In this document: positions 3,570 to 42,360 of the stretch, one piece after another
Layout: every line of letters starts with the position of its first letter
How positions within the stretch are numbered: position 1 is the first letter of the stretch
From: a virus
DNA: 45,039 bases
Reading direction: 5' to 3' (one strand)
Virus record (IMG/VR): IMGVR_UViG_3300047678_000811
Location: 1 to 45,039 of that record
Translations under genes and position numbers: made by a program
The notes under the pieces: generated by a model
Seen by the model: the letters and a program-made list of their open reading frames with translations, nothing else
Databases searched by the model: none
Told to the model about the DNA's origin: nothing

Positions 3570-5843
3570 CTATGCGTGCGTCATCAGTTTCCAACCGGTG
3601 TTCGCACCGATCGTGCCGCGGAAGATGTAAGCCTCACCGTTGGTGATGTCGTAGGCCATGTGCGCCTTCGACAAGCCCGTGAGCGATGCTTCCGGCGTGG
3701 CGGTCACGATGCTCTCGTACCGATCGCCCAGGTTATTGCGGTGGCGCACACGCGCTCCCACCAACGAAAGCTGCTTCAGCGTATTTGTGCTGTGGTCTTC
3801 GGCGCGCAACTCGCCTTCGCCGTTGCCGCTGTCAGCGGTGCTGTCATACGAGCCTTGGAGGCTGGAGCCATTGGCGTCCGTGACCTTGCCCGTCGCGCGC
3901 CATTGCTTGTGCAGCGCCAGATAGTCGTCGGACGAGCGGGCGATGGCGCCCGGGGAATCGGACGAGGAGAAGCGGTTACCGATGCCCGCGCCAAAATCAC
4001 CTGCGAGAGTGGACCAAGTGCCACCCGTCACTTCCGGCAACTCCCAGCCGTGCAGGATGACGTTCGAATTATCGACGTTCACTATCTTGCCGCCGGTGTA
4101 GGTGCCCGCGCCCAAGTCTTCGAAACGCTGTGTGCCGAGGAACCGGATGCGGTCAAACTCCCGGTTGGCCGATGGCACGCCAGCGCCCCAGATCACATGT
4201 GCGGAACGGCCGTCCAATGCCTGAATGGCGTTGATGTTGGGATAGCTGCTGTTCGCCACCGCGAAATTGCTGGCCGCGTCAGCGGTGATGTGCTTCACCG
4301 TCACGCCGTCGATCAAGCCATTCGTCGCGGTCTGCGACAGGAACGACATGGCTGCGCCGAGCTGGTTCTTCTGGGTAGTGGTGTTGATGCCCAAGGCAGC
4401 GGAATTGACCGCCACGCCGCGCACCTCGATCTGCTCCATAACCGTGTCGTTGATGAAGTTGTCCACAAAGGCGCAATGGAACATGAAGGCGTCGTGTCCG
4501 GCCTTCGATACCGTTACCTGCCGGATGGTCAGGTTCTCGATCCAGTTGGTGTTCGTGGGCGCGATACGCACGCCCTGCCGATAAGACTGGTCCAGCATTA
4601 CGCGTTCGATGATGCCGCCGTCCGTGTCGCTGGCGACGAGCAGATCAAGGCCGGTGTTATTGCCGAAGATGTCGAACCCAGACAGCAAGTAGGGCAGGAA
4701 CTCGCGCCCGGGGACAGTCGCATGGTCCTCATGGCCTTGCAGGGTGAGGCAGTGCGCGGCATGGCCGGACAGGTGAAAGTCCAGCGTCGCACGCCCGTCC
4801 GGGCAGACCAGCGCGTGCGCAATGGATGCGCTGCCGCCGATGGTGACCGCTTGGGTGAAATAGAGCTTCAGCCCAGCATGGACACGAACACCGCTGAACG
4901 CCTTGCCCTTCGCTGCACAAGCGGCTGCTAGATAGGTGGAGAGGTCAGTTGTGCCAGCACCGGATTCGATCCCGGCCCAAAGCGTTTTCGGGATGAAGTC
5001 CATGAGGTTCACGTCGAGCGATAGCTTGGCCCCAAGGCCAACCGCCTGGCCGCCAGTTTCCTCATGCGTGAACGTCGCCAGATCGGCGCTTTTCTGCTGC
5101 CACGAACCGGACAGGAAAACCCGTTCCAGCCCATCGCTCTGAATGGTGATGACCTGGCCCGATGTCGGCGCACCGGAATACAGCCACGCGCTGCCGCTCC
5201 ATTCCGCGACCTGATTTTCGCGGCCGACAAATGCGCCTGATGTTCCGCTGGGTGCGACCAGATACCGGGCATTTGTGGCGGGTCCGCCGGGCGGAGAGGA
5301 TTGAATCGAGATGACCGGCTTGGCCCAAAGGTTGGTTCCCACCGATGCGGCGGTTCCCATGATGGCCTCGGCGGCAGCCAGAACTTCCGTCGCAAGGCTC
5401 TCCGGGTCCACGCCATCGAGATAATCGGCAACCGATACCGACAGCGCCCGCTTCACCCGCAAATCCAGATCGCGCATCTGGACCGCGAAGTCGTTCAGCA
5501 CCTTGTCCAACTCGGTCATGTTGAGGGCCTTACCCTCAAGGAAGAAACCGATGCGGCGCGGATCGCGCTTGGACCAGATGATGACGCGGGTGCCGGAAAC
5601 TGCCGTGTCCAGCGTAACGGTCCCGCCGTCATAGACGCCGGTCAGGCCGGAAATGGGATTGCCGACAAACTCGAAATCCGCAGCGGTCAGTTCCCCGCCG
5701 CCGGACAAAATCCCGATATCGTCTTTCGGGTCTTCGCCGTCCGAAAAATAGACCGGCCAGTCGATTACAAAGTCGCTGGTCGAAACGACCGGCGTGTAAT
5801 CGGCAAGGCGATCAACATCTTCGATGTCAGGGTTCGTGGCCAT
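3570..5843 (-). CDS. T7-like tail fibre / tailspike
   Basis: The 757-residue protein begins with a T7 gp17-type attachment region (about residues 1-150; FVIDWPVYFSDG, DPRRIGFFLEGKAL and VQMRDLDLRVKRALSV are visible). A DUF2793-like segment follows (about 180-250; ARYLVAPSGTSGAF). Residues about 280-620 have the Asn/Gly/Val-rich repeat pattern of a right-handed beta-helix, as in polysaccharide-degrading or receptor-binding spikes. It is the last virion gene before lysis and is preceded by a copy of the leftward repeat motif. Enzymatic activity cannot be judged from sequence alone. Confidence 0.85.
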   Translation of the reverse strand: MATNPDIEDVDRLADYTPVVSTSDFVIDWPVYFSDGEDPKDDIGILSGGGELTAADFEFVGNPISGLTGVYDGGTVTLDTAVSGTRVIIWSKRDPRRIGFFLEGKALNMTELDKVLNDFAVQMRDLDLRVKRALSVSVADYLDGVDPESLATEVLAAAEAIMGTAASVGTNLWAKPVISIQSSPPGGPATNARYLVAPSGTSGAFVGRENQVAEWSGSAWLYSGAPTSGQVITIQSDGLERVFLSGSWQQKSADLATFTHEETGGQAVGLGAKLSLDVNLMDFIPKTLWAGIESGAGTTDLSTYLAAACAAKGKAFSGVRVHAGLKLYFTQAVTIGGSASIAHALVCPDGRATLDFHLSGHAAHCLTLQGHEDHATVPGREFLPYLLSGFDIFGNNTGLDLLVASDTDGGIIERVMLDQSYRQGVRIAPTNTNWIENLTIRQVTVSKAGHDAFMFHCAFVDNFINDTVMEQIEVRGVAVNSAALGINTTTQKNQLGAAMSFLSQTATNGLIDGVTVKHITADAASNFAVANSSYPNINAIQALDGRSAHVIWGAGVPSANREFDRIRFLGTQRFEDLGAGTYTGGKIVNVDNSNVILHGWELPEVTGGTWSTLAGDFGAGIGNRFSSSDSPGAIARSSDDYLALHKQWRATGKVTDANGSSLQGSYDSTADSGNGEGELRAEDHSTNTLKQLSLVGARVRHRNNLGDRYESIVTATPEASLTGLSKAHMAYDITNGEAYIFRGTIGANTGWKLMTHA

Positions 5844-5887: not shown

Positions 5888-8404
5888 CTATTGGCCGACC
5901 GCGTATTGCGACGGCGGAAACATGAAAGTCTGATCGTTGTCCCGCTTCACCCGCTGCTCCATGCGGCGCAGATAGCCGGGGTTCGCCATTTCCTGCAAAT
6001 TATACAAGACCAGATAGTCGAGGGCGATGCGCGTGTAGGGCAGATTCAGGAATGGCGTGTTGCTGACGCCAAGCCGGATGCCGTCCGCGGTGGGGTCTTC
6101 GCCGCTGCGGATTTTGCCCCAAAGCTGGATGATGTCGGCAGCGGTGCCGAAAGCCGGACCCGCCGCCGTCTCCAGCGGGCCGCCACCGAAGCGGTTCACC
6201 TCTCCGAACAGATAGTCGCCATAGATGCCAAGGCCCCCGCCCTGAAGCATCGCCGCGCGCCATGTGCTGGCCCAATTGTCCCCGAACGGATCGCGCGGGG
6301 ATCGGCCCTTGAGGACTTCCTTGGTCTGGAGCGCAATCATGCCCATGACGGTCGTGGCGGCGATGGTGTGCGCCAAGCCGGTCAGGTCGCCCTTGCCCTT
6401 GAGCAATCCCTGCACGACACCCTCCCCACCCAGATCGCGCCCGATGACCTTGGTGGCGAAGGCGACGGGGAACGCCTTGAACTGCATCAGGAAGCGCAGG
6501 CTTTCGCCCATCCATGTCCCGCGCGTGGTGCCTTGGTGCAGGATGGCGTTCTCGCGCGCGCCGGGCGTGACCACGGCGATATCCGTCCGATCGGTGTAGA
6601 AGGCCTGCAAGGCGGTCGAGAGTTCGTCCCGGAGCGATTGCGCCTGCCGGCCGGTCTTGGCCCCCAGCGCCGCAAACGCGGTGTCAGGAAGGGCGCGGAT
6701 GGCGTCCGGGGTCAGGTAGGCCTTGCCGTCCAGCGACCGCTGCGGGGCCTTGCGGATGACCTCCCAGCGGGCTTCGTCAATGCCATAGAGCGACAGGGCT
6801 TCCCGAAAGCGCGGATCGACCTTGCCCCACGCCCGCGCCGTCTCGCCGGCCGCCCGGGCGGACATCATGCGCGCCGCGCCGGTCTTCATGGCGTCGGTCC
6901 AGAAGGTCAGCAGGTTGGCCTTGAAGAACAGGCGTTGCAGATTGGACGCCACGCCCGGCAGATCGTCCACCGCGCCGAAGCGGGACATGACCGAGCCGAG
7001 CGCCCCGTCCAGCCCGACGCCGATATCCGCCGCCAGCACCCGCGCCTCGCGCGATGCCCGGCCTTCAAGGAAATTTGCCAGCAGGCCGGTATAGGCCGCG
7101 CCAAGGTTCTGCCCCTGGAACCGCAATTCGCTCGCCGCCGTGGCCACGTCCGACACGCTGGAAATGACCGAGCCGCCCAGCTTGGCCATGCTCTGCACGG
7201 CCCGGATGCCGCTGGCGACCTGGGCGATGGACGGGTCATCGGCAATCTTGGCCGTGCCGTCGATCTCCGCGAACTGGTTCTCCAGCCCGGCGCCGCGCAA
7301 CTGGCTGGCCCATTCGGGATGCTCTGACCGGTTGGAATAGGCCAGCGCCGCCCGCACGTCATCGAACATGGCGCGGGGATTGGTGCCCCACGTCTCCATC
7401 AAGCCGATGTCGCGCGCCGACCGTTCCAGCCCGCCGAATATCCCCTCGATGAGCGACCGCGTGCCGAACCGCTCGTTGTAGGCCAAGAACGCATCCGCAT
7501 CCTTGAAGTGCAGAATCCGCTCCTGGCTGACGCGTTTCGCCAGATTACCCGGGCCTTTGAAGGCAAGATCATCCGTTGCACCTTGGGATTTGAGATGGAC
7601 GCCGGAGGCGAGCGCGTCATAGGCACCGCCCAGAAACGCCTTGGGATCGCTGCTGCCGAAGGTCTTGTCCGCGTCCAGCAGGGGGCGAATGAACGCCTGC
7701 CATTCGGCCCCGCCCGCCTTGCGGATTTTCAGCATGTCGTGGCTTTGCCGCATGATGTAGCCCGGCAGGCGGCGGACGAATGACCCAGCGCGGTTCGACC
7801 GCAGACGGGCCACCTCCTGCCATTTGTTGACGATTTCCGCGATGCGCTTGGCTTCTGGCGAAACATCAGCCGTTGCCTTGCCATCCTCACCGATGGACCA
7901 CAGGGCGCGGGCGATGTCCCGATCCAGCACCCCGGCGTCGCGGCCGAACAGCCCCAAGCGGCGGGAGAAGAACTCCAGCAGGCCGTCCCGCTCCAGATCA
8001 CCGATCAGCCCGCCGACGAACTCCGCGGCAAGCGCCTTTTGCCGGGCATCGACCGACAGGCGCGACCCGGCGAATTTCTTGTTGGTCCCGACATTGATGG
8101 CCGCGATGGCGTCCGGCGCCGATACCCCCTTGGCGATGGCCATGTCCGCGAATTCATGCAGGCGCTTCCTGACCACAATATTGATGGCCTTGTTCCGGGC
8201 TTCCATCTTGGCGGCCATGTTGGCATCAGCCCGGAAATCCTCCGCAGCGGCGTCCAGCGCCTCTTTGTCGGACAGCAGCTTGTCGCGCGCCCGCTTACCC
8301 CGCGCCCGACGCTCCACATCGGCGGCGATATCCTCGATATCCTGAGCGGTCAGATCGTCTCCGGCCACCTTCCGGATTTCGTCAATGCAGTCCTTGATCG
8401 CCAT
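5888..8404 (-). CDS. Large internal virion / DNA-ejection protein (T7 gp16-like position)
   Basis: The 838-residue protein is mainly helical, with Ala/Arg-rich N-terminal coiled-coil character (about residues 20-90). Its C-terminal part has hydrophobic stretches (GLAHTIAATTVMGMIALQT, about 650-670) and ends near FPPSQYAVGQ. Length, order after two other internal proteins and position before the tail fibre match the gp16-type ejection protein of T7-like phages, which enters the cell envelope during DNA entry. No transglycosylase motif was recognised; the peptidase activity sits in a neighbouring gene instead. Confidence 0.72.
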   Translation of the reverse strand: MAIKDCIDEIRKVAGDDLTAQDIEDIAADVERRARGKRARDKLLSDKEALDAAAEDFRADANMAAKMEARNKAINIVVRKRLHEFADMAIAKGVSAPDAIAAINVGTNKKFAGSRLSVDARQKALAAEFVGGLIGDLERDGLLEFFSRRLGLFGRDAGVLDRDIARALWSIGEDGKATADVSPEAKRIAEIVNKWQEVARLRSNRAGSFVRRLPGYIMRQSHDMLKIRKAGGAEWQAFIRPLLDADKTFGSSDPKAFLGGAYDALASGVHLKSQGATDDLAFKGPGNLAKRVSQERILHFKDADAFLAYNERFGTRSLIEGIFGGLERSARDIGLMETWGTNPRAMFDDVRAALAYSNRSEHPEWASQLRGAGLENQFAEIDGTAKIADDPSIAQVASGIRAVQSMAKLGGSVISSVSDVATAASELRFQGQNLGAAYTGLLANFLEGRASREARVLAADIGVGLDGALGSVMSRFGAVDDLPGVASNLQRLFFKANLLTFWTDAMKTGAARMMSARAAGETARAWGKVDPRFREALSLYGIDEARWEVIRKAPQRSLDGKAYLTPDAIRALPDTAFAALGAKTGRQAQSLRDELSTALQAFYTDRTDIAVVTPGARENAILHQGTTRGTWMGESLRFLMQFKAFPVAFATKVIGRDLGGEGVVQGLLKGKGDLTGLAHTIAATTVMGMIALQTKEVLKGRSPRDPFGDNWASTWRAAMLQGGGLGIYGDYLFGEVNRFGGGPLETAAGPAFGTAADIIQLWGKIRSGEDPTADGIRLGVSNTPFLNLPYTRIALDYLVLYNLQEMANPGYLRRMEQRVKRDNDQTFMFPPSQYAVGQ

Positions 8405-34471: not shown

Positions 34472-34683
34472 CCCGCCCAGCGAATTGCCCGTTCTGCGGC
34501 CACGAAGCCAAGACGACGATCCTCAACTTCGCATCGAAGCTCGCCCGCTACGCCGTCACCTGCACCAATGACGAATGCCCTGTTGAGGCGCAGGCGACCG
34601 CCGGGACTATCCCCGAAGCGGTTGCGCTGTGGAATACCCGGCCTGCGTCGGTAGGCGTCGGCGTGCACCGGGAGGCGGCGTGA
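34468..34683 (+). CDS. Lar-like zinc-finger protein
   Basis: The 71-residue protein has CPFCG (about 8-12), CTNDEC (about 32-37) and TIPEAVALWNTRP (about 47-59). This is the CPFCG...C..C...A...WN.R signature of the Lar restriction-alleviation family. Lar of prophage Rac modulates type I restriction; the phage homologue may protect incoming DNA. Its stop overlaps the ATPase GTG start. Confidence 0.72.
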   Translation: MTRPANCPFCGHEAKTTILNFASKLARYAVTCTNDECPVEAQATAGTIPEAVALWNTRPASVGVGVHREAA

Positions 34684-36356
34684 CCTTTCCTATTCCGACC
34701 ACCGCCCTGGACGACCGGCTGGCCATTCTCGGCACGGCAGGCAGCGGCAAAACTTATCTGACCACGACCGCTATTGAGCGGCTGCTGCAATCTGGCCAGC
34801 GCGCGGTATGCGTGGACCCGCTAGGCGTGATGTGGGGGCTTCGCCTCAAGGCTGATGGCAAAACGTCTTCCGGCTTCAATTTGCCGATATTCGGTGGGCG
34901 ACATGGCGATCTGCCGCTGACCGAACATGCCGGTGCGCTGATCGGTGAGACTGTGGCGACAATGCGGGAAAGCTGCATCGTGGACCTGTCAGAACTGCCC
35001 ACCAAGGCGGCGGAGCGTCGCTTTATGACCGCGTTCCTTGAGGCGATCTATCGGCACACCGACCCGACCAAGGTCGATCCGTTCCACCTGATTATTGATG
35101 AAGCCGACCGCTTTGCACCGCAGAAGCCGCCAGCCGGTGACGAAACCATGCTGAACCGCATGGAGGAAATCGTCCGACGCGGCCGCGTGAAGGGCTTCAT
35201 TCCGTGGCTAATCACCCAGCGCCCGGCTGTCCTGAACAAAAATGTCCTATCACAAGCTGACGGGCTGGTGCTGCTCAAGCTGACATCCTCGCAGGACCGC
35301 GATCAAGTCGGCGCGTGGATCGAAGGGCAAGCCGACCGCGCACAGGGCAAGGCGATCCTCGGTTCGCTCCCGGCGATGCAGCGCGGTCAGGGTGTCGTTT
35401 GGATACCGGGGCGCGGTATCCTCGAAACTGTTCAGTTTCCCCGCAAATCCACCTTTGACAGCAGCAGTGCGCCGAAGCGAGGCGAAAAGCGCAGCGCCAC
35501 CGCGCTCAAGCCGCTGGACCTCGGCGCGCTCAAGGAACGGCTGGCAACGGTCGAAACTGAAACCAAGGCCAACGACCCCAAGGCATTAAAGGCCGAGATT
35601 GCCTCGCTGCGGAAGCAGATGGCCGACGCGGTCAAGCAGAAGGTGGTGGCCGACCCCGCGGCTTTGGCCAACGCGGAACAGCGCGGATACAACAATGGCT
35701 GCGCCGTTGGCTTCGCAGATGGCTATGTAAAAGGCCGCGATGAGGCGTTCGAAGTTGTTCGCGACGCCGCCACAAGGATCGGTAAGCTGGAATCGCCGGT
35801 CAAGCCGCGCTTTCCACATCCCCCCCCCCCAGCGCCTGTAGCTCAGAGGATAGAGCGCCGGGTTCCGAACCCGAAGGTCGCAGGTTCGAGTCCTGCCGGG
35901 CGCGCCACCCTTCCACCGGGCGAGCGCGCCGTTTTGATCGCCGCCGCACAGTTCGATGGCGTCGAACGGGAACAGCTTACGGTCCTGACGGGGTATAAGC
36001 GCTCGTCCCGCGACGCATATATCCAGCGCCTCAAGGAAAGGGGATTTGTTAGCGTATCTGGCGCAACGGTTTCGATCACGCCAGAAGGCGAGGCCGCGCT
36101 GCCGGACGATTACGAGCCGTTGCCGACCGGCGCTGATCTGCGCGCTTATTGGCTGGGACGGCTTCCAGAGGGCGAGCGGCGCATCCTTGAAGTTCTAATC
36201 GACGCCTATCCCGACAGCATAGACCGCGCCTCATTGGACACCGCCACCGGATATAAGCGGTCCAGCCGCGACGCATACCTGCAACGGATGAAGGCGAAAC
36301 GCCTTTGGGAAGCGGACGGTTCACTTGTCCGCGCTGGCAAGGAGCTTTTCGCATGA
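34680..36356 (+). CDS. HerA/DUF87-like ATPase with a tRNA gene embedded in its linker
   Basis: The 558-residue protein starts at GTG 34680 (GTGA overlap, GGGAGG site). The N-terminal ATPase has Walker A GTAGSGKT (18-25) and Walker B LIIDEAD (137-143). A helical, Lys/Ala-rich linker ends in a proline run. Residues about 385-410 are encoded by a tRNA-Arg gene. The C-terminal part carries two copies of TGYKRSSRDAY (from about 437 and 523), a winged-helix-like tandem. It precedes the exonuclease and RecT genes, so a DNA-translocation role in recombination is plausible. A poly-C run at 35820-35830 could cause slippage. Confidence 0.8.
   Translation: MTFPIPTTALDDRLAILGTAGSGKTYLTTTAIERLLQSGQRAVCVDPLGVMWGLRLKADGKTSSGFNLPIFGGRHGDLPLTEHAGALIGETVATMRESCIVDLSELPTKAAERRFMTAFLEAIYRHTDPTKVDPFHLIIDEADRFAPQKPPAGDETMLNRMEEIVRRGRVKGFIPWLITQRPAVLNKNVLSQADGLVLLKLTSSQDRDQVGAWIEGQADRAQGKAILGSLPAMQRGQGVVWIPGRGILETVQFPRKSTFDSSSAPKRGEKRSATALKPLDLGALKERLATVETETKANDPKALKAEIASLRKQMADAVKQKVVADPAALANAEQRGYNNGCAVGFADGYVKGRDEAFEVVRDAATRIGKLESPVKPRFPHPPPPAPVAQRIERRVPNPKVAGSSPAGRATLPPGERAVLIAAAQFDGVEREQLTVLTGYKRSSRDAYIQRLKERGFVSVSGATVSITPEGEAALPDDYEPLPTGADLRAYWLGRLPEGERRILEVLIDAYPDSIDRASLDTATGYKRSSRDAYLQRMKAKRLWEADGSLVRAGKELFA
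35820..35830. repeat. Poly-C tract (11 bases)
   Basis: Eleven consecutive C bases lie immediately before the embedded tRNA, encoding a proline run. Loss of one C would bring the TAG at 35839 into frame near the tRNA 5' end; gain of one would use another frame. It is a candidate slippage or phase-variation site, or a place where sequencing could have miscounted. Confidence 0.8.
35832..35907 (+). tRNA. tRNA-Arg (anticodon CCG), inside an ORF
   Basis: A full 76-nt cloverleaf can be drawn: acceptor GCGCCTG/CGGGCGC (one G-T pair), D stem GCTC/GAGC, anticodon loop TTCCGAA (CCG), T stem GCAGG/CCTGC with TTCGAGT loop, discriminator G and encoded CCA. The anticodon stem has one C-A mismatch at its outer pair. 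It is in frame with the ATPase gene, encoding the VAQRIERR...VAGSSPAGR type of peptide known from tRNA read-through. No promoter of its own was identified. Confidence 0.88.
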
Positions 36357-38998: not shown

Positions 38999-39207
38999 GC
39001 GACTGGCAGCCGATTGAGACAGCGCCGAAGTCAGAACCATACTGGGATGCCCCGCGCGTTCTGGTGTTCGGGAAGTGCGGAATACAGATGGGTCGCGTCA
39101 TCCATTTTCCTGACGGCTCGGTCGAGGGCCGCGCCGAAGGCTTTCATGGCGAATGGGAAATCACGATGTGGCAGCCCCTTCCCTCCCCACCCACCAGCAC
39201 GGAGTAA
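38995..39207 (+). CDS. DUF551-like protein, copy B
   Basis: The 70-residue protein starts at GTG 38995 with SDWQPIETAPKSEPYWDAPRV and ends MWQPLPSPPTSTE. It shares the WxPIETAPK start and PLPSPP end with copy A, which points to a tandem duplication with later divergence of the middle. Confidence 0.75.
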   Translation: MSDWQPIETAPKSEPYWDAPRVLVFGKCGIQMGRVIHFPDGSVEGRAEGFHGEWEITMWQPLPSPPTSTE

Positions 39208-39211
39208 GGGG

Positions 39212-39865
39212 ATGGCGCGTTCTAAAAAGGTCGCTGGAACAATTTCGATTAAGTCGAAAGACCGAGGCCAGGGAAACGGCAACATTTCGGAAACATTCGT
39301 CTTTCCACCCCAGACCATGGGCTATGCGCGGGTCAGTACGTCCGAACAAAGTCTGGATATGCAAATCACTGCCCTAAAGGCTGCGGGCGTTCCTGACGAG
39401 CCTTACCGCCTGTTCCGGGAGAAGGTATCGGCTGCCGGACATCGGCCACAGCTTTCCCTGCTGATGAAGATGCTGCGGAAGGGAGACACCCTATACGTCT
39501 ATTCCTTCAGCCGTCTGAGCCGCGAACTGAAAAAGCTGCTGATCCTCATGGATGAATTGAGGGCCAAAGGCGTCACTATTCGCAGCACTTCAGAGCCTCA
39601 TATCGACCCGCACACGACCAGTGGCCGCCTTGTCCTGAGCATGACAGGCGCGATTGACGAGAACGAACGCCGCCGCCTGCGGGAGCGCACGACTGATGGC
39701 ATGACCGAGCGTAAGCGCCAGGGCGTGAGTATGGGGCGGCCGAGACTGGTCACACCAGAGGTGGCCGCACAGATGCAGAAGCTGCGCAACAAGCGCATTT
39801 CTGTTTCTGCAATCGCAAGCCAGTTCAAGGTCAAGCCATCAACCGTCTATGCGAATACTCGTTAA
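39212..39865 (+). CDS. Serine recombinase (resolvase/invertase family)
   Basis: The 217-residue protein has the catalytic YARVSTSEQSLDMQ with Ser42, then SRLSRELKKLLILMDEL, TSGRLVLSMTGAIDENERRRLRER and a C-terminal HTH (VSAIASQFKVKPSTVYANTR). This is the small resolvase/invertase type. The first 35 residues are a basic, unusual extension; Met36 is an alternative start. The phage also has a tyrosine integrase, so inversion, resolution of multimers or use as a second integration route are all possible. Confidence 0.87.
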   Translation: MARSKKVAGTISIKSKDRGQGNGNISETFVFPPQTMGYARVSTSEQSLDMQITALKAAGVPDEPYRLFREKVSAAGHRPQLSLLMKMLRKGDTLYVYSFSRLSRELKKLLILMDELRAKGVTIRSTSEPHIDPHTTSGRLVLSMTGAIDENERRRLRERTTDGMTERKRQGVSMGRPRLVTPEVAAQMQKLRNKRISVSAIASQFKVKPSTVYANTR

Positions 39866-40868: not shown

Positions 40869-41141
40869 ATGAGCCGCCTCAAACGACATGCTGCTTTGAC
40901 CACCCATGCCCGGCGACTGACGCCGGTCGAGGTCGCGCAGCATTGGTTCCGGCGCAGCACCGACTTTGCCAAGCAGATTCATGAGGCGTTCCCCACCTTT
41001 CCGCAGGCCGGACCGGATGGGCTTTTTCTCCTAAGCCATGTCGAGGCATGGTTTGACCGCTTCCACGGCAATAAGCAGCGTGACCCCGGTCCTGTTCGCG
41101 AAGAACAGGAACTGCGGAGGGTCATCAATGGGATCAGATAA
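40869..41141 (+). CDS. Excisionase-like DNA-binding protein
   Basis: The 90-residue protein starts MSRLKRHAALTTHARRLT. TPVEVAQHWFRRSTDFAKQIHEAF and GLFLLSHVEAWFDRF resemble the HTH and wing of AlpA/Xis-type proteins. It overlaps the integrase start by 14 bp. Size and position fit a recombination directionality factor. Confidence 0.65.
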   Translation: MSRLKRHAALTTHARRLTPVEVAQHWFRRSTDFAKQIHEAFPTFPQAGPDGLFLLSHVEAWFDRFHGNKQRDPGPVREEQELRRVINGIR

Positions 41142-42210
41142 GGTGCGGCATCTTAGGCTGAGAGGTGGGCGGTATTACTGGCAGCCGAGCGCGACGCTGG
41201 TGGCGCGGGGGCTGTGCGCTGAGGCCTTGGGCACCGACTATGCGGCGGCCAAGAAACGGGCTTTGGAACTGAACGACTTAGCCGATGGCGTTCGCGCCAC
41301 CCGCCAGATCGTGGTGGACATAGGCCCCAAGCCGGGGACCATCTCGAAGCTGTTCCGGGACTATCAGGCATCGGAGGAATTCCAAGACCTGAAGCAGCGC
41401 ACCCGTGACGATTACACCTATTATCTGGGGAAGATCGAGGACCATCTCGGCCAATTTCAGGTGCGCAGCCTGACCCCGAAGGACGTCAAGGATTATTACC
41501 GGAAGGTCCGGGCGGCGAAGTCCGTCACATGGGGCTACCACATTCTCAGCACCCTGCGCACGGTCCTGAGCTGGGCCGTGGCTGAGAACTGGATAGACGA
41601 CAACCCGGCCAAGCACGTGAAGATGAAGGCCCCCCAGAAGCGCCGGGTTATGTGGACGCTGGCGCAGGCAGAGGCCTATATCGCCCAAGCGAAGGCCATG
41701 GGCTGGCATTCCATAGCCGCTATGGTTCTGGTGTTCGATTGCACGGCACAGTCCCCTGTGGACGTTAGGGGGCTCAGGCGCGGCGATTACGACGGGGTGG
41801 CCATTTCCGTCACCCGCGCCAAGACGGGCGTGTCTGACGCTCCTATCCCGCTGTGGCCCGAAGTTAAGGCGGCGCTGGACGAATACCTTGCCACCCGACC
41901 AGCCCTGCACCCGGACGCGGCGCTCTTTGTCGATGACCGAGCACTGCCTTGGAATGAGAACCATCTCAACCGCAAGCACCGGCTGATCCGCCGCGCGGCT
42001 GGCCTGCCCGAGAACCTACAGCTTCAGGACTTCCGCCGGACGGCACAGACGGAGGCCGGGGCCGGGAGCGCGACGGTCGATGAAATCCGCGCCCTCGCCC
42101 GCCACAAAACCCGGTCAGCAGCAGAACACTATGTCGTGCCAACCGGCGACTATGTTACAAATGCCCAGCGGAAGCGCCGGGCCTTCAGGAAGGGTCAGGC
42201 CAATGGCTGA
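41128..42210 (+). CDS. int: Tyrosine integrase
   Basis: The 360-residue protein starts at ATG 41128 behind a GGAGGG site. It has an N-terminal arm-binding region, a core-binding domain (LTPKDVKDYYRKVR) and a catalytic domain with Arg214 (DVRGLRRGDY), Arg303 (DFRRT), His326 (ARHKT) and Tyr335 (EHYVVP). The first box-II position is Gln-Asp instead of His, as in many phage integrases of this type. It is adjacent to tRNA-Arg(CCT), the likely target. Confidence 0.92.
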   Translation: MGSDKVRHLRLRGGRYYWQPSATLVARGLCAEALGTDYAAAKKRALELNDLADGVRATRQIVVDIGPKPGTISKLFRDYQASEEFQDLKQRTRDDYTYYLGKIEDHLGQFQVRSLTPKDVKDYYRKVRAAKSVTWGYHILSTLRTVLSWAVAENWIDDNPAKHVKMKAPQKRRVMWTLAQAEAYIAQAKAMGWHSIAAMVLVFDCTAQSPVDVRGLRRGDYDGVAISVTRAKTGVSDAPIPLWPEVKAALDEYLATRPALHPDAALFVDDRALPWNENHLNRKHRLIRRAAGLPENLQLQDFRRTAQTEAGAGSATVDEIRALARHKTRSAAEHYVVPTGDYVTNAQRKRRAFRKGQANG

Positions 42211-42322
42211 ACAGAAACGACTTGGCAACCAAATGTTGGAATTCGCCCTCTGTGCTGCTATCGAAAAGTTGGAAAAGCCCAGCGACCCCATAGCTCAGCA
42301 GGATAGAGCGGCGGTTTCCTAA
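42203..42322 (+). CDS. Small ORF ending inside the tRNA gene
   Basis: The 39-residue ORF starts in an 8-bp overlap with the integrase end and runs MAEQKRLGNQMLEFALCAAI, then into the tRNA, where its TAA stop is part of the anticodon loop. The last ten residues are tRNA-encoded. It may be a chance frame or a phage gene that spans the attachment site. Confidence 0.35.
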   Translation: MAEQKRLGNQMLEFALCAAIEKLEKPSDPIAQQDRAAVS

Positions 42323-42360
42323 ACCGTAGGCCGGAAGTTCGAGTCTTCCTGGGGTCACCA
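42284..42360 (+). tRNA. tRNA-Arg (anticodon CCT), probable attachment site
   Basis: The 77-nt cloverleaf has acceptor GACCCCA/TGGGGTC, D stem GCTC/GAGC, anticodon stem GCGGT/ACCGT with loop TTCCTAA (CCT), T stem GGAAG/CTTCC with loop TTCGAGT, discriminator A and encoded CCA. The integrase gene ends 73 bp before it. The prophage lies on its 5' side, so the 5' part and promoter may be phage-derived. Confidence 0.92.

Follow-up and report, generated by a model that had tools for sequence, protein, structure and literature searches.

Phage-encoded tRNA genes and HerA proteins are both of kinds that are already known. The tRNA genes of phages ordinarily lie between other genes or in arrays, and the HerA/FtsK-type DNA translocases, including those of the HerA-NurA, HerA-SIR2, and HerA-DUF4297 systems, have a P-loop ATPase fold. 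A third kind of relevant element is found in Rickettsia, whose palindromic elements are selfish repeats present in many copies as in-frame insertions in protein genes. The locus described here lies in record IMGVR_UViG_3300047678_000811 (45,039 bases, hereafter the window, meaning the whole stretch of DNA that was analysed). Its tRNA gene is like other phage-encoded tRNA genes in being complete, in encoding its CCA, and in having diverged from the sampled host isoacceptors (at most 83% identity to host-clade tRNA-Arg(CCG) genes), but it differs from them in its in-frame location within a conserved gene of considerable length. The protein encoded by that gene gave its best Foldseek and profile matches to the P-loop ATPase fold of HerA/FtsK-type translocases, but unlike the three HerA systems above it represents a phage branch with a coiled coil, tandem winged helices, and a tRNA in the linker. 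As with the Rickettsia elements, a structured nucleic-acid element is tolerated in frame in a coding sequence; in contrast to them, it is a single complete tRNA at one orthologous site. We know of no other case in which diverged phages have a complete in-frame tRNA at the orthologous position of a conserved gene, and the searched open-access literature yielded no report of a phage gene with a complete tRNA within its reading frame. A check of 424 other tRNAs from 120 viral contigs revealed none deep in a long ORF of the same strand; the one exception was an array of tRNAs through which a frame of 350 codons stays open.

Annotation practice treats structural-RNA genes and protein genes as mutually exclusive; the intact pair of nested tRNAs and the fossil described below show that they can share DNA. 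AntiFam collects spurious translations of tRNAs (PMC9710616), and the peptide VAQRIE...NPKVAGSSPAGRA resembles its entries in being a translated tRNA. Unlike those entries, the frame here runs on both sides into conserved domains under selection, and the ORF at 34680-36356 is therefore real. In the PHANOTATE work tRNAs were masked (PMC6853651), and Bakta removes ORFs that lie along tRNAs, which it treats as spurious (PMC8743544); as a result, nested cases would tend to escape notice. Such masking and filtering could explain the absence of comparable cases.

The prophage and its HerA-like gene

The window covers most of one prophage, with host DNA at its right end. The features considered in this study are as follows.

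34680-36356, plus strand: ORF containing the nested tRNA, 558 codons, GTG start; HerA-like ATPase, coiled coil, linker, and two winged helices
34680-35478, plus strand: HerA/FtsK-type P-loop ATPase domain (Foldseek, PDB profile search)
35523-35783, plus strand: helical coiled-coil region, residues 282-368 (AlphaFold model)
35790-35900, plus strand: predicted disordered linker, residues 371-407 (AlphaFold pLDDT <50)
35820-35830, plus strand: C11 tract, read as Pro codons, ending one base 5' of the nested tRNA
35832-35907, plus strand: tRNA-Arg(CCG), 76 nt, encoded CCA, in frame (ARAGORN, Rfam); protein reading APVAQRIERRVPNPKVAGSSPAGRA(T)
35910-36353, plus strand: two winged-helix repeats of the GYKRSSRDAY type, the usual C-terminus of the family (homologues, AlphaFold)
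41038-42210, plus strand: tyrosine integrase (PHROG 1, E 3e-31)
42284-42360, plus strand: host tRNA-Arg(CCT), probable right attachment site of the prophage (ARAGORN and Rfam)

Host-type genes, including one for a PPK2 kinase, follow on the 3' side of the tRNA-Arg(CCT) at 42284-42360. The alphaproteobacterial genomes G141 and G240 each have an identical copy of this tRNA, and this places the host of the prophage in or near their clade. Genes for a YqaJ-type exonuclease and a RecT-like annealase are located downstream of the HerA-like gene.

The HerA/FtsK P-loop fold of the ATPase domain was found with an AlphaFold model (built with a 44-sequence alignment; mean pLDDT 89.7), with Foldseek (E 4e-12 against HerA structures), and with a PDB profile search (E 4e-28 to a HerA-type helicase). 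Both sides of the nested tRNA showed dN/dS far below 1: the ATPase domain gave dN 0.06 and dS 1.67 against the homolog in contig L003, and the winged-helix part gave dN 0.17 and dS 1.57 against that in L057. In the model, residues 371-407 form the sole segment predicted with pLDDT below 50, and this segment covers nearly all of the tRNA-coded residues 385-410.

The homologs of the HerA-like ORF are single continuous genes, the linkers of which vary in length and sequence. None of them consists of two separate genes at this point, and the ORF itself is continuous through the tRNA, in agreement with the original prediction that the gene had absorbed a tRNA without loss of frame. The repeats (TGYKRSSRDAY) that had been taken for the normal C-terminus of the protein are indeed that, a GYKRSSRDAY pair being usual in the family. 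A separate downstream gene was also considered and was excluded by the continuous homologs; the winged helices follow directly after the tRNA, with no convincing start. Counted from TFDS to LPPGE, the linker including the tRNA has 153 residues, compared to 142-203 in 43 homologs, and after subtraction of the tRNA-coded part it is shorter than the linkers of all 43. Because the linker is not longer despite the tRNA, the tRNA replaces linker sequence and makes no net addition.

The gene at 4001-5782 of L003 lacks the tRNA, and its ATPase domain is 94% identical in amino acid sequence to that of the prophage. Beyond about residue 320, any similarity of its coiled coil, linker, and C-terminal module is very remote or nonexistent. 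Judged from the two sequences, this is a case of C-terminal block swapping between phages.

A complete tRNA-Arg(CCG) in the reading frame

The foldable 76-nt tRNA-Arg(CCG) of the original prediction proved to be complete. ARAGORN called it at exactly 35832-35907, and the Rfam covariance model RF00005 accepted the cloverleaf over its full length with 67.7 bits, against a gathering threshold of 29. The near-universal tRNA positions tested, including the conserved tertiary ones, are all kept (15/15), the CCA is encoded, and 20 of the 21 stem pairs are formed, the sole unpaired one being C27.A43. Bacterial tRNAs with 4-bp anticodon stems are on record (PMC13092985). The position in frame inside the ATPase ORF was likewise confirmed: the tRNA starts in phase at codon 385 (GCG CCT GTA GCT ...) and supplies 25 codons and one base to the ORF at 34680-36356, occupying codons 385-410. 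Not one of 2,000 codon-shuffled versions of this ORF contained a tRNA. A20 and the CCG anticodon fit what is expected for arginine identity. In the mRNA context, the cloverleaf lies approximately 5.8 kcal/mol above the ensemble, and 14 of 150 ordinary phage tRNAs are at least as costly; the value is thus within their range, and the strength of the fold is not diagnostic. The CGG codon accounts for approximately 25-31% of the Arg codons of the phage, a share not clearly higher than in a host-clade genome.

The C11 tract at 35820-35830 is the only homopolymer of at least eight bases in the window. Gain or loss of one base in the tract would shift the frame, so that the protein would end ahead of the winged helices or inside them. 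The tract may be hypermutable and confer phase variation, or it may be a scar of acquisition or an error in assembled length. The HerA-like gene of L293, described next, has no such tract.

Relatives with an intact or decayed tRNA at the same site

A search using the C-terminal repeats found 85 homologs, none of which had a tRNA, and the insertion was at first concluded to be a one-off. This view was dropped because a search using the ATPase domain led to L291 and L293, contigs of two assemblies that contain an identical ORF. The ATPase domain of this ORF is 70% identical in amino acid sequence to that of the prophage, and the C-terminal module is different. The corresponding linker of this ORF also contains a 76-nt tRNA-Arg(CCG), which is located at codon 388 (5162-5237 of L291 and L293) in the same phase and has an Rfam score of 70.0 bits and a single blemish, the change of C56 to U.

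A third relative, L302, displayed an ungapped match to the tRNA in the same phase at codon 392 (5174-5249), in which 51 of 75 positions agree. The best in-frame matches of the other linkers reached at most 38/75, which is within noise, and none of 1,000 shuffles attained the alignment score of L302. Since only 15 of the 21 pairs and 10 of the 15 conserved sites remain and Rfam rejects the sequence, we regard it as a fossil tRNA with a surviving reading frame. The linker peptide encoded at 5174-5249, SPATLRTERQVQNLRAAASSPVGRG, is derived from the tRNA; its frame was kept while the tRNA decayed. As far as sequence comparison can tell, the linker of the L302 protein thus originated in a tRNA gene, and the nested tRNA shows a route from RNA genes to protein linkers. 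The remaining homologs scanned, more than 110, were without a nested tRNA. The "tRNA-Pro" called by ARAGORN within an ORF of L010 and L065 was rejected as a false positive.

Possible constraint on the RNA rather than the peptide

The nested tRNAs of the prophage and L293 are 87% identical, with ten differences. The ATPase genes of the same two phages have 69% nucleotide identity, and their flanking linkers are unalignable (approximately 50%). When the linker and the C-terminal half were compared by blastn, the match consisted mainly of the tRNA as an island (ORF nt 1151-1240, 86%), plus a 44-nt piece. Five of the tRNA differences are located in the acceptor stem, and pairing is kept at all of them (4-69, 5-68, and 6-67); a sixth stem difference turns C27.A43 of the prophage into U27-A43 in L293. 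Five of the six changed codons within the tRNA are nonsynonymous. For this one sequence pair, randomly placed substitutions preserved pairing to this extent in 0.5-3% of simulated trials, the value varying with the setup. These results suggest that the RNA, rather than the peptide, is under constraint; as the evidence comes from one pair of sequences, the RNA-level constraint is suggestive, short of proof.

Origin and history of the nested tRNA

Both intact nested tRNAs have the 76-nt length, a shorter D-loop, G30-C40, G31-C39, and G59, all of which are absent from the sampled host-clade tRNA-Arg(CCG) genes. These genes are no more than 83% identical to the nested tRNA, and we therefore rejected a recent capture from the host. 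The best matches at the level of the class reach 87% and are Arg(TCT/CCT) genes. No match to the tRNA signature at up to three mismatches was obtained in 385 alphaproteobacterial and 329 same-phylum genomes (two samples that partly overlap), nor was a copy of the exact-form pattern found elsewhere in the viral contigs. Protein searches of bacterial genomes, which were insensitive, revealed no further carriers.

In the tree of the ATPase domains, the tRNA-less L003 is placed beside the prophage, and L293 belongs to another well-supported clade, with tRNA-less relatives between the two intact carriers. This separation means that horizontal movement was involved or that loss has been frequent. 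A single ancestral acquisition, with later loss and exchange, is the simplest history.

Interpretation of the nested tRNA

An intact homologous tRNA at the same site and in the same frame in a distant relative, together with a decayed one in a third phage, leads us to propose that the same DNA probably gives rise to a tRNA as well as to part of a protein. A dual-coding locus, one of several meanings that the original prediction had offered, has thereby become the leading reading: the tRNA lies in frame in a continuous gene and recurs at the same site, intact in L291 and L293 and decayed in L302. On balance, we favor the interpretation that this is a phage tRNA-Arg(CCG) nested in frame in a disordered HerA-like linker and probably still serving as a tRNA.

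The following course of events would account for it. An ancestral HerA gene of the phage group would have gained the tRNA within a linker in which nearly every sequence is tolerated, with the tRNA sitting in its stop-free frame. The tRNA would have been retained for its usefulness to the phage, for example as a decoder of Arg-CGG codons or as a replacement when host tRNAs are cut; codon usage favors neither of these two roles over the other. Going by established tRNA biology, the G73-CCA end and the cloverleaf would make the HerA transcript a candidate RNase P substrate, from which RNase P and 3' processing may free the tRNA. The upstream message would then lack a stop codon and the downstream piece a start, and each transcript would give either full-length HerA or the tRNA. 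Maturation would compete with translation on the same transcript, and translating ribosomes in the linker would hold the tRNA unfolded; the nested tRNA would be a natural case of conflict between translation and tRNA processing. In lineages that swap the linker and C-terminal block, or in which the tRNA decays, the protein would stay and the tRNA would be lost. That both products are actually used, with the transcript going either to ribosomes to give HerA or to RNase P to give tRNA-Arg and a truncated message, is an extension that we put forward tentatively and with some doubt. If it is true, tRNA maturation would set the amount of translocase or split the translocase from its winged-helix tail. 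Among the points that count against a retained tRNA are the cost of the cloverleaf in the mRNA and the CGG share, which is not clearly above that of a host-clade genome. In addition, an RNase P cut would destroy the message of a gene under purifying selection, and each intact copy has one blemish, C27.A43 in the prophage and C56 to U in L293.

The same blemishes fit the alternative that the tRNA is a passenger, tolerated in an unconstrained linker because its frame is open, now serving only as linker peptide and heading for decay. L302 demonstrates such decay with the frame kept, and the tRNA-coded peptide gives the linker its normal length, without which it would fall below all 43 homologs. 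The prophage and L293, however, keep nearly all pairs and conserved sites despite the 69% identity of their ATPase genes and the unalignable flanks, and the tRNA changes are nonsynonymous yet preserve pairing, which makes a mere passenger unlikely in our view. Given the separation of the carriers on the ATPase tree, horizontal exchange in place of long conservation is possible: the tRNA, with or without a little linker, may have recombined recently between HerA genes, perhaps as a homology anchor for C-terminal swaps, and its conservation would then reflect recency. The branches parting the carriers are well supported, their C-terminal modules differ, and L003, with its 94% identical ATPase domain, has another C-terminal block and no tRNA. 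On the other hand, the match barely exceeds the tRNA (ORF nt 1151-1240), the two tRNAs already differ by ten substitutions without loss of pairing, and no free copy appeared in the two genome samples or, as the exact pattern, elsewhere in the viral contigs. Recent exchange as the source of the conservation thus seems rather improbable.

The original prediction had further suggested an old attachment site captured by the phage, or a landing site for other elements. Genes for tRNA-Arg are common integration targets, and in G141 the 3' half of a tRNA-Arg(CCG), 44 nt long, is found near an integrase-like gene. The prophage integrase, by contrast, adjoins the tRNA-Arg(CCT) at 42284-42360, which host-type sequence follows; with the right attachment site of the prophage most likely there, an attachment reading of the CCG tRNA is unsupported. 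The CCG tRNA is complete, lies away from the integrase, and has neither a repeat of its 3' end nor any partner repeat in the 45,039-nt record; no repeat or element was found at it that would indicate a landing site, and in L293 it is a different tRNA 3' fragment that follows the integrase. We consider attachment or landing of the phage or another element at this tRNA very improbable. Still harder to credit is an assembly chimera joined at a conserved tRNA with the aid of the C11 tract. The sequence comes from a collection of viral records and a homopolymer adjoins the tRNA, but a misjoin at a tRNA would not bring both parts of a single gene family together in frame, and two other contigs, L291 and L293, were assembled with this architecture and have no C tract.

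Other tRNA fragments and recombinases

In L293, a tRNA 3' fragment differing from the nested tRNA is present at approximately 6900-6947, directly 3' of the integrase, and is a probable attP. The 44-nt 3' half of tRNA-Arg(CCG) in G141 is located at 268011-268054 of contig C5 (L048 and L278) with an integrase-like ORF close by, and is probably an attachment-site remnant of another element. In addition to the tyrosine integrase, the prophage has a gene for a serine resolvase/invertase at 39014-39865.
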